Of a stretch of DNA of 64,000 nucleotides, positions 19,603-27,978 are shown piece after piece. The notes under the pieces were generated by a model. It worked only from the letters and a program-made list of their open reading frames with translations, made no database searches and was not told the DNA's origin. Origin of the DNA: Flavobacteriales bacterium (lineage in GTDB: Bacteria; Bacteroidota; Bacteroidia; Flavobacteriales_C; GCA-002722245); contig JAHEZL010000002.1 in assembly GCA_023251095.1 (NCBI GenBank), positions 124,001 to 188,000 on the forward strand, written 5' to 3'. Position 1 is the stretch's first letter. Every line of letters starts with the position of its first letter. Made by a program: the position numbers and the translations under genes.

Positions 19603-19614
19603 ACTTTTATAAAA

Positions 19615-19654
19615 GTTTCAGGTTTAAAGTTTCAGGTTTAAAATTTTAAACCTG
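19615..19654. repeat. direct repeats and 22-bp palindrome between atpA and atpG
   Basis: The 14-mer gtttcaggtttaaa occurs twice in tandem (19615-19628 and 19629-19642). The second copy merges into a perfect 22-bp palindrome at 19633-19654 (CAGGTTTAAAA and its reverse complement). It is located in the transcribed gap between atpA and atpG and could fold into an RNA hairpin. Function is unknown. Confidence 0.75.
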
Positions 19655-19669
19655 GAACTCGAAACAATC

Positions 19670-21918: not shown

Positions 21919-22416
21919 TTAATTCAAGTTTACGTCTTCTACCAAAGTATCCATTAAAGCTTGTTGCTTGTTTTTGTCGGCCAGTTCATGACCCAAAATT
22001 TTCTCAGAAATCTCAATTGACAAGGCAGCCACTTGATTTTTCAATTCAGTGATGGCTCTTTGTTTTTCAACTTCAATGCTTTTTTTAGCTTCTTCCATGA
22101 TTTTAGTAGCCTCTTTTTTCGCTTGGTTTTTAGCATCACCAACGATAGTATCTTTAGCAGTACGTGCTTCTTTTAAAATGTAGTCGCGTTCTTCACGTGC
22201 TTCTTTTAAAATTTGCTCGTTCTGTGCAGTCAGCTGTTGCATTCTTTGTTCAGCTTCTTTTGCAGAAGACAAAGCTTTTTCAATATTGTCTTCTCTTGTT
22301 TTTACGGCACCCATAATAGGTTTCCATGCGAATTTCCCCAAAAGGAAAAGCAAAATAAAAAACGTTAGAGTTGTCCAAATAATGAGACCGAAATCGGGGG
22401 TTACTAAAGGATTCAT
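21919..22416 (-). CDS. atpF: F1Fo ATP synthase subunit b
   Basis: A 165-aa stator subunit with one N-terminal transmembrane helix (about residues 8-28, LIIWTTLTFFILLFLLGKFAW) followed by a long charged, heptad-rich coiled coil to the C-terminus. The sequence FAWKPIMGAVKTREDNIEKAL just after the membrane helix is characteristic of b subunits. It lies between atpE and atpH; the 84-base gap to atpE contains the terminator-like hairpin at 22452-22488. No b' gene is present, so a b homodimer is expected. Confidence 0.95.
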   Translation of the reverse strand: MNPLVTPDFGLIIWTTLTFFILLFLLGKFAWKPIMGAVKTREDNIEKALSSAKEAEQRMQQLTAQNEQILKEAREERDYILKEARTAKDTIVGDAKNQAKKEATKIMEEAKKSIEVEKQRAITELKNQVAALSIEISEKILGHELADKNKQQALMDTLVEDVNLN

Positions 22417-22451
22417 TTCTTATATCTTTTTATTGTTTTGTTGCATTTTAA

Positions 22452-22488
22452 AAAAGAGCCCGTGGGCCAACCGCTTCCGGGCTCTTTT
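22452..22488 (-). terminator. terminator-like hairpin between atpE and atpF
   Basis: On the minus strand an 11-bp perfect stem (AAAAGAGCCCG with CGGGCTCTTTT; arms 22478-22488 and 22452-22462) with a 15-nt loop is followed by further T residues at 22450-22451. This is the form of an intrinsic terminator. It lies 12 nt after the atpE stop codon and before the atpF start, inside an otherwise continuous operon. Partial termination or protection of the upstream message could raise c-subunit output relative to downstream subunits. Confidence 0.75.
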
Positions 22489-22500
22489 GATTTTTAAGTA

Positions 22501-22731
<231 letters not shown>

Positions 22732-23942: not shown

Positions 23943-24317
23943 CTAAGCTTGCTTTTTTAATGATTTAATGACCAAAATTAATTCGGTGATCATATAGAGA
24001 AAGTATAGGGAAATAAAGAAAATCATAAAGGCGGCTTCGTCTGCTTTTTCGAGGAAACGTAGCGCGAAAATAAAAAAGCTCCCACCTAAAATTACTTTTA
24101 ATAAACTCTGTCCGAGAAAAATAAATGCGGGTAAAATTTTAGTGAGTTTGGCAGTGAGCTCCACAGAAAAAATAGTGAAAAGCGTGAGCATGAAAATAAC
24201 AAAGTGGGCTGCGATGTATATTTTGCTGCTGAGGGCCGGAAAATAAAAGGCAAACAAGCCATGAAGAACAGCCATCACTACTCCGAAGCCGGAGAAAACG
24301 AGAACGGGCTTAATCAT
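23943..24317 (-). CDS. small four-helix membrane protein of the ATP synthase cluster
   Basis: A 124-aa protein consisting almost only of four predicted transmembrane helices (about residues 5-25, 33-52, 62-85 and 95-117) with a short Lys-rich C-terminus. It overlaps the AtpZ gene by 8 bases and precedes atpB, the place where a small AtpI-like gene is usually found in Bacteroidota. I do not recognise specific residues of AtpI, whose proposed role is c-ring assembly or magnesium supply. Function is inferred from position only. Confidence 0.65.
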   Translation of the reverse strand: MIKPVLVFSGFGVVMAVLHGLFAFYFPALSSKIYIAAHFVIFMLTLFTIFSVELTAKLTKILPAFIFLGQSLLKVILGGSFFIFALRFLEKADEAAFMIFFISLYFLYMITELILVIKSLKKQA

Positions 24318-24528
24318 TTTTAGGGTTGATAAAATCTTTCAGCGCGAAGTACATGCCCATGAAAACGCCTATGAGCGCGAGCACTACTGTCCAGATATTT
24401 TTAGTCTGGTATTTTTCATCCAAAGCCTTTCCTGCCCATACGCCCAAAATGATGGGAATCACCATTTGGAAGGCCATGTTGGAATACTTTAAATAAGCGT
24501 TAGGCTGTTTTTTCTTTGAGGGCTCCAA
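24310..24528 (-). CDS. AtpZ/AtpI-family small membrane protein
   Basis: A 72-aa protein with two transmembrane helices (about residues 18-36 and 44-64) and a basic N-terminus. The segment PIILGVWAGKALDEKYQTKN followed by a second helix is the usual pattern of the AtpZ/AtpI family (putative F0F1 assembly subunit). The chosen start at 24528 overlaps the bactofilin gene by 29 bases. An alternative Met at codon 18 would begin inside the first helix, so the longer form is preferred. It is followed with an 8-base overlap by another small membrane protein gene and then atpB. Confidence 0.8.
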   Translation of the reverse strand: MEPSKKKQPNAYLKYSNMAFQMVIPIILGVWAGKALDEKYQTKNIWTVVLALIGVFMGMYFALKDFINPKND

Positions 24529-24925
24529 GAGTTTTTTCTTCTTTAAATTCTTTTACAACGCCGCCCATTTTGCATGAGCCGGTGAAAGTTGCTCCCGGTT
24601 CAACGGACAATCTACCTGTAGTGATTTCACCGCTTAAGTTGGCGGTAGATTTGAGTTCCAGCAATTCTTTTACAAAGATGGATGATTTGATAACACCTTC
24701 AATTTCTGCGTGGTGGCATCTGATATCACCTTCCACAATCCCTGATTTTCCAACTACTATTTTGCCTTCACAGGTAACAGAACCTTTGATTGTTCCGTCG
24801 ATTCTGATTCCTTTTGAGGAGATGATGTCGCCTTGAAATATTGTGCCTTCTGCAATTTTATCGGCTAAATTTGAATTTGATTCGGTAGATCTTACCATGA
24901 TTTCTTGGTTTTTGCTTTTGAACAT
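24500..24925 (-). CDS. bactofilin (polymer-forming cytoskeletal protein)
   Basis: A 141-aa bactofilin. The core from about residue 20 to 120 is a right-handed beta helix built of short repeats (GTIFQGDIISSKGIRIDGTIKGSVTCEG, GIVEGDIRCHHAEIEGVIKS, ANLSGEITTGRLSVEPGATFTG; quoted in pieces), the DUF583 pattern. Bactofilins polymerise without nucleotide and position enzymes or scaffold cell shape. The gene leads the ATP synthase accessory genes and overlaps AtpZ by 29 bases. This gene order is familiar in Bacteroidota, but why they are coupled is not explained. A -7-like TATTTTTG on the minus strand at 24945-24952 could be its promoter. Confidence 0.9.
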   Translation of the reverse strand: MFKSKNQEIMVRSTESNSNLADKIAEGTIFQGDIISSKGIRIDGTIKGSVTCEGKIVVGKSGIVEGDIRCHHAEIEGVIKSSIFVKELLELKSTANLSGEITTGRLSVEPGATFTGSCKMGGVVKEFKEEKTLGALKEKTA

Positions 24926-24952: not shown

Positions 24953-25000
24953 AGAAAGAAGGGGAGGGATTGGTGTTGAAAAAGAGGAGAGTTTTGAACA

Positions 25001-25064
25001 ATTTTCCACAGATTTCACAGATTTACGCAGATCTGTGTAAATCTGTGAAATCTGCGGGAAAAAT
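25001..25064. repeat. imperfect long palindrome, second CACAGATT-type element
   Basis: The arms (about 25001-25031 and 25032-25064) are nearly reverse complementary with no loop. They contain CACAGATTTCACAGATTTACGCAGA on one side and its slightly changed complement on the other, with two or three mismatches and one extra base. The unit is clearly related to the perfect inverted repeat at 9056-9123. As there, it sits a few bases after a stop codon, here that of the ArgF' gene (stop at 25069-25071). Confidence 0.85.
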
Positions 25065-25068
25065 ATTT

Positions 25069-26016
25069 TTACAGATTTTCCAAAATCCTTTTCAATACTA
25101 CCTGTGCGGAAGTCACACGATTTTTGGCTTCAGGGATAATGATGGAATAATCAGCATCTAAAACTTCATCCGTTACTACTACATTTCTGCGAACAGGAAG
25201 GCAGTGCATGAATTTAGCGTTATTGGTGAGGGCCATTTTTTCTGAAGAAACCGTCCATGCCGGATCGGTGTTCAATATCTGTCCGTAGCTTTGGTACGAC
25301 GACCAGTTTTTGGCGTAAATGAAATCAGCATCTTTAAAAGCGTTGTTCTGATCGTTGGTCACCGTAACACCTTCCATGAATTCAGGAGCGAGTTCATAAC
25401 CTTCGGGATGCGTCACTACAAAATCAACATCGGCATTTTTCATCCATTGTACAAAGCTGTTGGGAACCGCTTGCGGCAATGCTTTCGGATGCGGAGCCCA
25501 GGTCAAAACTACTTTCGGACGCTGTACTTTTTTGTATTCTTCAATAGTGATTAAATCGGCTAAAGATTGCAGCGGATGTAAAGTAGAAGACTCTAAATTC
25601 ACCACAGGAACTCCTGAATATTTCATGAAGCTTTTCAATACTTCTTCGGAATAATCTTTTTTGCGGTCTTTCAATCCGGCGAAGGAGCGAACAGCAATAA
25701 TATCGCAATAAGCGCCCATCACACGGGCGGCATCCTTGATGTGTTCGGCAGCATCACCATTCATGATGGCGCCATCTTCCATTTCCAGCTTCCATCCGTC
25801 AGATCCAACGTTCATCACAATCACGCTCATGCCCAAATTAATGGCTGCTTTTTGTGTACTCAAACGCGTTCTTAAGCTGGAATTGAAAAAAATCAAACCG
25901 ATGGTTTTGCCTTTTCCTAAAGAAGAAAAATTGCTGATCGTTTTTTTCAATTCAATGGCCTCGGCTACTATACCTTTTAAATCGGTAACATCGGATATGG
26001 AGAAAAAATGCTTCAC
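25069..26016 (-). CDS. argF': N-succinylornithine/N-acetylornithine carbamoyltransferase
   Basis: A 315-aa transcarbamylase using carbamoyl phosphate on an N-acylated ornithine in arginine synthesis. The carbamoyl-phosphate loop is F-F-N-S-S-L-R-T-R (residues 43-51), differing from the STRTR of ordinary OTCases. TWAPHPKALPQAVPNSF and FMHCLPVRRNVVVTDEV are typical of the Bacteroidota/Xanthomonas acyl-ornithine enzymes. At the position known to set specificity (Glu92 in Xanthomonas acetylornithine enzyme, Pro90 in the Bacteroides fragilis succinylornithine enzyme) this protein has Ala90 in NGDAAEH. Loss of the Glu favours succinylornithine; this is inference. argH ends 3 nt upstream, so the two form an arginine operon. 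Confidence 0.93.
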   Translation of the reverse strand: MKHFFSISDVTDLKGIVAEAIELKKTISNFSSLGKGKTIGLIFFNSSLRTRLSTQKAAINLGMSVIVMNVGSDGWKLEMEDGAIMNGDAAEHIKDAARVMGAYCDIIAVRSFAGLKDRKKDYSEEVLKSFMKYSGVPVVNLESSTLHPLQSLADLITIEEYKKVQRPKVVLTWAPHPKALPQAVPNSFVQWMKNADVDFVVTHPEGYELAPEFMEGVTVTNDQNNAFKDADFIYAKNWSSYQSYGQILNTDPAWTVSSEKMALTNNAKFMHCLPVRRNVVVTDEVLDADYSIIIPEAKNRVTSAQVVLKRILENL

Positions 26017-27400: not shown

Positions 27401-27781
27401 TTACATCAAAAACCTAATATCAGCTAATTCCTTCCCGATTTTTTGAACTCCTTTTAATATTCGTTGAGTTTGAGCTGGAGAAGGTTTTTTGTGACCAATG
27501 ATATATTGTGCTAATAAACTTTGATTCATTCCGATTCTTTCGGAAAGAGCTTTAGCATTAATGACTTTATAAAATTCAAAAAACTGAGGTAGGTCAAGAG
27601 TGATCTTTAAATCATTTTCAGTGACAGTTTTCTTTTCTGATTCGAAGTGTAAGTTTAATGCTTCGAGAATGTTTTCTTTCAGCTCTTCCAAAGTTTTCCC
27701 TACTGTATAAACCGAATGTTTTTCAGCATAAGCTGAATATCCTGTTTTTGTTTTTTCAACTATCATTTCAATTTTTTTCAT
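27401..27781 (-). CDS. hicB: HicB-type antitoxin with XRE helix-turn-helix
   Basis: A 126-aa antitoxin. The N-terminal half (IEMIVEKTKTGYSAYAEKHSVYTVGKTLEEL) is the degraded RNase H-like HicB fold. The C-terminal half contains an XRE-type helix-turn-helix (AKALSERIGMNQSLLAQYIIGHKKPSPAQTQRI; residues about 75-108) for autoregulation. It follows hicA by 11 nt in the usual hicA-hicB order. It should bind HicA to block its RNase activity and repress the operon. The family is well known as a type II toxin-antitoxin system; whether this copy is active is not known. Confidence 0.88.
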   Translation of the reverse strand: MKKIEMIVEKTKTGYSAYAEKHSVYTVGKTLEELKENILEALNLHFESEKKTVTENDLKITLDLPQFFEFYKVINAKALSERIGMNQSLLAQYIIGHKKPSPAQTQRILKGVQKIGKELADIRFLM

Positions 27782-27792
27782 GCTTCAAGAGT

Positions 27793-27978
27793 TTATTTTA
27801 AACCTGCATCTTTTAATATTTTATTGGCCAATCCGGTTCCAACTTCCTGACTCCCATGATTTGGAACAGTGAGTTGATTAGCCTTTTCCGAATGGAGCAT
27901 TATCATGTGACTTCCTTTTTGCCGGATAATTATCCACCCATCTTTTTTCAATATTCTTATGAGTTCACTGCTTTTCAT
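27793..27978 (-). CDS. hicA: HicA-type mRNA interferase toxin
   Basis: A 61-aa toxin with the double-stranded RNA-binding-like fold of HicA. Conserved features: the start SSELIRILKKDGW, then RQKGSHMIM with the catalytic His at residue 24, TVPNHG, and ANKILKDAGL. Full length is normal. It precedes hicB in the same direction, and no other gene intervenes, so this is a complete two-gene module of the kind often gained by transfer. Both genes sit between argH and a lamin-tail protein gene. Confidence 0.9.
   Translation of the reverse strand: MKSSELIRILKKDGWIIIRQKGSHMIMLHSEKANQLTVPNHGSQEVGTGLANKILKDAGLK

Follow-up and report, generated by a model that had tools for sequence, protein, structure and literature searches.

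An RNA hairpin located between the genes for the c subunit (atpE) and the b subunit (atpF) of ATP synthase was identified in the window (the whole 64,000-nt stretch of Flavobacteriales DNA analysed here) and at the matching place in other members of class Bacteroidia. The element is characterised by its position, one significant copy in the genome, a covarying stem, a conserved RC[GRUUG]GY apex and weak conservation of the U-tract. No earlier description of the element was found in open-access full texts. As judged from its sequence features, there is an even chance that it is a class-specific element which bounds or protects the 3' end of the c-subunit mRNA segment and whose loop is read by a trans-acting factor.

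The hairpin and its surroundings in the window

The ATP synthase genes of the window and the parts of the hairpin are placed as follows.

ATP synthase operon, minus strand: gene order atpB, atpE, atpF, atpH, atpA, atpG, identities from Pfam
23838-22750, minus strand: atpB
22501..22713, minus strand: atpE, ATP synthase c subunit, 70 aa (PF00137)
21919..22416, minus strand: atpF, b subunit (PF00430), start codon 35 nt 3' of the hairpin
22452..22488, minus strand: whole hairpin in the 16+5+16 register of covariance model R1, from sequence, fold and model match (E 4.6e-5)
22488-22478 / 22462-22452, minus strand: outer 11-bp stem of the hairpin
22466..22474, minus strand: conserved apex GC-GGUUG-GC, pentaloop proper at 22472-22468
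22450..22455, minus strand: six consecutive U closing the stem on its 3' side, a U-run that the class does not conserve
22417..22451, minus strand: A+U-rich spacer and atpF leader, with no predicted structure

Read from 12 nt past the atpE stop codon, the letters of the minus strand are AAAAGAGCCCG - GAAGCGGUUGGCCCA - CGGGCUCUUUU, followed by UU. The hairpin is made up of an outer stem of 11 bp, a 3x3 internal loop, two inner G-C pairs and the pentaloop, with the 15-nt outer loop enclosing the two inner G-C pairs that flank GGUUG. The initial annotation had described a hairpin directly after atpE within the operon, having a perfect, GC-capped 11-bp stem and a 3' T run. This description was confirmed in the window by the minus-strand sequence, where the stem, GC-rich beside the loop, starts 12 nt past the stop (22488-22452) and ends in six U. 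The predicted RNA fold has an energy of -20.9 kcal/mol, compared with -11.8 ± 2.7 kcal/mol for shuffled sequences (z -3.4, equalled by 1 of 200 shuffles), and the stem is stable and contains GC pairs, as required of a Rho-independent terminator. Its exact palindrome occurs once in the whole 3.59-Mb genome. A simple terminator and promoter scan of the window did not list the hairpin, because the loop limit of that scan is 8. Downstream of the hairpin the operon continues on the same strand with atpF, atpH, atpA and atpG.

A number of other features were observed near the operon. Upstream of it, at 24990-25070, there is a near-perfect palindrome of the CAGATTT..AAATCTG type which is also present at about 17 other places in the genome (33 matches over the two strands, with this place included) and is a dispersed REP-like element. 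The atpA-atpG gap (19603-19669, minus strand) contains repeated AGGTTTAAA/TTTAAACCT units with a hairpin fold of -17.3 kcal/mol. Upstream of the F0 genes (24310-24925, minus strand), a gene for a bactofilin and an AtpZ/ATPase_gene1-like gene overlap, and a HicA toxin gene (PF07927) is followed by a probable HicB-type antitoxin gene with no Pfam match (27401-27978, minus strand).

Conservation of the hairpin and its apex in class Bacteroidia

AtpE was present in 57 of 60 related genomes, mostly one per family of class Bacteroidia. The gaps after atpE in these relatives contain hairpins at the matching place, with stems unrelated in sequence and a common apex which on reading of the gaps is (A/G)C-GGUUG-G(U/C), or the same with GAUUG. 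A count made with no selection of the loop covered these 57 genomes (one with two operons) and, among the matches listed, 118 further genomes drawn from a class set in which 280 of 295 genomes had AtpE. This gave 176 atpE copies, one of which was cut by a contig end, leaving 175 that were counted. By fold call, a predicted hairpin of at least 9 bp was present in 163 of the 175 gaps, a lenient criterion that 63% of shuffled gaps reach. The stronger figures are therefore those at the 15-bp level, with 116 hairpins observed against 31 expected in 167 gaps of at least 30 nt, and the folding z, which was below -2 in 157 of the 167 (median -4.8). The atpB-atpE gap, which is shorter, served as a control, and there 6 of 28 loci had a hairpin of 9 bp or more.

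The gene following atpE was recognised automatically as atpF in 151 of the 175 cases. The remaining 24 were mostly atpF-like by eye and included a few that were uncallable and at least four other genes, one of them in G047 and three in family f43 (3/3; loci L051, L185, L283), where the hairpin loop is also different. Genome G007 possesses two ATP synthase operons (loci L006 and L044), with the element 3' of atpE in both.

The apical loop of the main hairpin was GRUUG closed by C-G or G-C in 102 of the 175 gaps, representing 32 of 56 families. The rest comprised 19 gaps with another 5-nt loop ending in G (e.g., GCUUG), 42 with other loops and 12 with no hairpin of at least 9 bp. A second, pattern-based count found the GRUUG apex within a paired stem in 106 of the 175 gaps and in 31 families, and in these motif hairpins the stem begins a median of 13 nt past the atpE stop and ends a median of 38 nt before atpF (n = 106).

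The element is patchy within the class. Families f11 (10/10) and f53 (6/6) keep the hairpin with different loops, and family f32 (3/3) has gaps of only 12 to 15 nt with no hairpin. Conservation in close relatives, which had been proposed as a check of the initial annotation, was seen in three of the four other genomes of the genus and failed in G003, whose 27-nt gap holds no hairpin. With the GRUUG loop missing in 73 of 175 gaps by fold call and a hairpin of at least 9 bp in 12, it follows that the element is dispensable in some lineages.

The class consensus of the apex is R C [G R U U G] G Y. Among the 106 motif hairpins, the pair closing the GRUUG loop is C-G in 97 and G-C in 9, this pair having belonged to the search pattern, and the pair below it, which lay outside the pattern, is A-U in 60 and G-C in 46 and never the reverse (R-Y in 106 of 106). 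Every pair type occurs in the lower stem, and constraint is far stronger at the apex than in the stem. The initial annotation missed the conserved loop, a feature that is needed neither for termination nor for simply blocking exonucleases. In the motif hairpins GRUUG has the sense orientation, the pattern itself having been sought on the sense strand, and the covariance model, for which both strands were searched, matched the atpE strand. This orientation was counted in favour of a function at the level of RNA, which requires sense reading.

Scanning genome contigs yielded 80 named loci, and the apex was found inside a paired stem in 63 of 137 non-duplicate loci. By name or kinship all 63 are from Bacteroidota, with Pedobacter, Mucilaginibacter, Capnocytophaga, Crocinitomicaceae and a Bacteroidales MAG among them. 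As this list was chosen by the loop pattern, the invariance of the loop within it follows from the selection. With seven near-duplicates removed, the 63 loci gave alignment A1 of 56 rows (55 distinct), in which 88.0% of cells are paired compared with 52.3% in shuffles, a share raised in the upper stem by the requirement that each row have at least 6 pairs, of any kind, among the 10 that are closest to the loop. This selection left the outer 6 pairs unconstrained, and they likewise covary. Double changes occur at 16 of 16 stem pairs and in 359 cells (111 ± 11 in shuffles), and the covariation score of 0.915 compares with 0.224 in shuffles and with at most 0.267 when the partner columns were slid by 1 to 3.

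Specificity and taxonomic range

Covariance model R1 gave one significant match in the genome of the window (E 4.6e-5), the next having an E of 6. Across 295 genomes of the class there were 106 matches in 104 genomes at E≤0.01, under strict filters that lose some matches, and 96 of the 105 checked lie directly 3' of atpE on the atpE strand (the match in G142 was outside the checked set). Genomes which gave no training sequence (G060 and up) account for 75 of the 106 matches, and 67 of the 74 checked among these are after atpE by hand count, although certain of the named loci used for training may come from species close to these. The nine checked matches that are not after atpE were found 3' of small envelope-protein genes (G207, G206), in an intergenic region with a U-run (G144), in the manner of 3' hairpins of other genes (G043, G018), within genes (G266, G199) or otherwise not at atpE (G111, G065). 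At a loose threshold, nine secondary matches (E 4e-5 to 0.03) in 36 carrier genomes were inspected, none of them at atpE. Leaving aside loci L153 and L154, the nine checked matches away from atpE resemble ordinary terminators or sit within genes, and so are attributed to chance. From the genome-wide positions of the R1 matches, the long stem with the GRUUG apex is thus almost exclusive to atpE, and similar hairpins elsewhere form a low background.

Loci L153 and L154 are strong look-alikes of the atpE hairpin situated 3' of small envelope-protein genes. Their neighbours encode a lysine/alanine-rich putative lipoprotein, and the gene at L154 has a weak LTXXQ/Spy match. These sequences hint that other abundant mRNAs may make use of the apex as well.

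In a sample of 296 genomes of the phylum, with class membership counted by eye, an R1 match was found in 40 of 73 members of class Bacteroidia and in 1 of 223 other Bacteroidota, and that single match (G374) is not at atpE. A set of 39 non-Bacteroidota genomes gave 7 matches at E≤0.01 in 5 genomes (best E 1.8e-4). Among 30 Bacteroidota genomes of other classes, one per family and with an automatic gap call that was unreliable or failed in about 4, the GRUUG apex was not found in the matching register. The loop heptamer occurred within 150 nt of atpE twice in these 30 genomes, once within atpF (L333) and once in a hairpin of another register (L328), the latter being a near miss. The element is nearly absent outside class Bacteroidia.

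Possible functions and relation to known elements

About ten c subunits are needed for every one or two copies of a neighbouring subunit, all being made from one operon. In E. coli the excess of the c subunit is provided for by a translation enhancer before atpE, and we know of no account of how it is achieved in Bacteroidia, where Shine-Dalgarno pairing is rarely used. The atpE hairpin plausibly serves this excess, as the initial annotation had supposed. In the reading that we favour, the element would act on RNA, post-transcriptionally, by marking the 3' limit of an mRNA segment that includes atpE. Once cleavage has occurred downstream, the hairpin would block 3'-to-5' exonucleases, and the c-subunit mRNA would thereby outlive the remainder of the operon. 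Segment protection suits the c subunit because many copies of it are needed, and such protection calls for a stable hairpin in or near the gap that follows the abundant gene, as seen in 163 of the 175 gaps. A trans-acting factor, either a protein or an RNA, would probably recognise the fixed loop and may stabilise the hairpin or recruit processing, since the fixed apex exceeds the needs of an exonuclease block and so suggests a reader. Counted against this explanation are the gaps that lack the loop or the hairpin, the fact that a plain exonuclease block needs no conserved loop and the U-run of 4 or more that is kept by 57 of the 106 motif hairpins.

Segment-protecting hairpins such as those of E. 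coli malE-malF (PMC5927463) and Rhodobacter puf (PMC7509114) are similar in being intra-operonic, in following a gene needed in excess and in often being free of U-tracts. The E. coli hairpins of Dar and Sorek (2018; PMC5927463) are described as lacking U-tracts, with 17 of 26 lying within coding sequence, and the 49 of 106 motif hairpins with a U-run of at most 3 are like them in the former respect. The known hairpins are defined by stability and a fixed loop is not described in the relevant parts of those reports, whereas the atpE element is one fixed-loop element at one gene, class-wide. A further likeness is to the chloroplast proteins PPR10 and BFA2 (PMC5897788; PMC6474325), where an ATP synthase intergenic site is a transcript end and a sequence-reading protein is the exonuclease barrier, and protection of chloroplast atp RNA has been linked to uneven subunit stoichiometry (PMC6474325). 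Those plant nuclear proteins, however, bind single-stranded PPR sites at atpI-atpH and atpF-atpA, with no fixed-loop hairpin in the accounts cited, and homology with the atpE element is not claimed.

No family of Rfam 15 reached its gathering score in the window stretch or in 16 other loci; the sub-threshold matches were weak and foreign (miRNA, S. pyogenes and Wolbachia sRNA models) and far below gathering scores. The L17 downstream element is reportedly, as its name says, a conserved element downstream of one gene. It is assigned to Lactobacillales and Listeria in its published entry (RF01708; Weinberg 2010, PMC2864571) and its Rfam model was unmatched here. The atpE element was not found described in open-access full texts, and neither atpE nor ATP synthase is mentioned in the main texts of the 2010 and 2021 structured-RNA surveys.

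A dedicated regulator, protein or RNA, could instead read the GRUUG apex and control the translation or localisation of atpE or atpF rather than mRNA ends, possibly with feedback from ATP synthase assembly. This we consider rather improbable. The constraint on the apex, far above that on the stem (C-G 97, G-C 9, then A-U 60, G-C 46; n = 106), and the presence of about one site per genome would be expected of such a regulator, but a candidate partner is neither known nor was one found in this analysis, the element has been lost in many lineages without obvious replacement, and the hairpin is kept more often than the loop (163 vs. 102 of 175).

It is unlikely that the element is a partial intrinsic terminator, the principal proposal of the initial annotation, at which RNA polymerase would sometimes stop and so yield more atpB-atpE than atpF-atpG transcript. 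The window stem ends in six U, the stems of motif hairpins often start with A and finish with U, and their longest 3'-side U-run is at least 5 in 42 of 106. This run is, however, exactly 4 in 15 and at most 3 in 49, same-genus relatives G001 and G004 included, so the six U of the window are not typical, and at least 5 U within the 8 nt past the stem are found in only 23 of 106. Intrinsic termination also does not demand a fixed loop. While the window's own copy, a stem with a U-run, is like a Rho-independent terminator and has a U-tract right after its stem, homologues do not keep this U-tract; the element differs further in its conserved loop and its place within an operon. As a function, the label of "terminator-like" given in the initial annotation was therefore not upheld. 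Judged from these sequences, partial intrinsic termination is not the conserved function of the element, and it may be possible where the U-run is kept, this genome included.

The hairpin might also act as an insulator that stops the highly translated atpE from folding together with the unstructured atpF leader or passing ribosomes into it, in a lineage with little Shine-Dalgarno use. Its place, a median of 13 nt past the atpE stop and 38 nt ahead of the atpF start, would fit, as would the description of F. johnsoniae as a member of Bacteroidia that seldom uses Shine-Dalgarno sequences (PMC8710568), but this very unlikely role leaves the fixed loop unexplained, and a hairpin of at least 9 bp occurs in only 6 of 28 atpB-atpE gaps. 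A mobile or dispersed (REP-like) palindrome, or a chance hairpin, is scarcely credible, as although one such palindrome does adjoin the operon in the same genome, the atpE hairpin is unique there and stems are unrelated between taxa with position fixed.

A dispersed palindrome of the REP/BIME kind would have many copies, and the genome has one exact palindrome and one significant R1 match, so that this reading was rejected. A DNA cruciform is disfavoured because the motif hairpins carry the loop in sense orientation. For a candidate pseudoknot of the loop with a downstream CAAC, GCAAC was seen by eye in the window and was absent by eye in several relatives.

The hairpin may tentatively be seen as a class-wide RNA recognition element of Bacteroidia, in which a dedicated factor would read the RC[GRUUG]GY apex after atpE and set the output of the ring subunit; this is possible though doubtful. 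The core of the tRNA D-loop is R15-D16-D17-G18-G19, and the likeness of the apex run R-U-U-G-G to it suggests that the reader might be a tRNA-binding enzyme. A similar way of working is found in the histone mRNA 3' stem-loop, where one gene class carries one 3' hairpin with a loop-reading protein, SLBP. That system differs in being eukaryotic and in having a conserved stem, and a relation to it is not claimed.

To our knowledge, few RNA-binding regulators are known in Bacteroidia. As a covarying, fixed-loop hairpin lies exactly after atpE, the question of c-subunit stoichiometry becomes directly testable. If a loop-reading factor exists, it would represent an RNA-binding specificity in a group with few such regulators, and if the class-wide reader proves true, it would be a bacterial counterpart, in its working, of a 3' stem-loop with its own binding protein.
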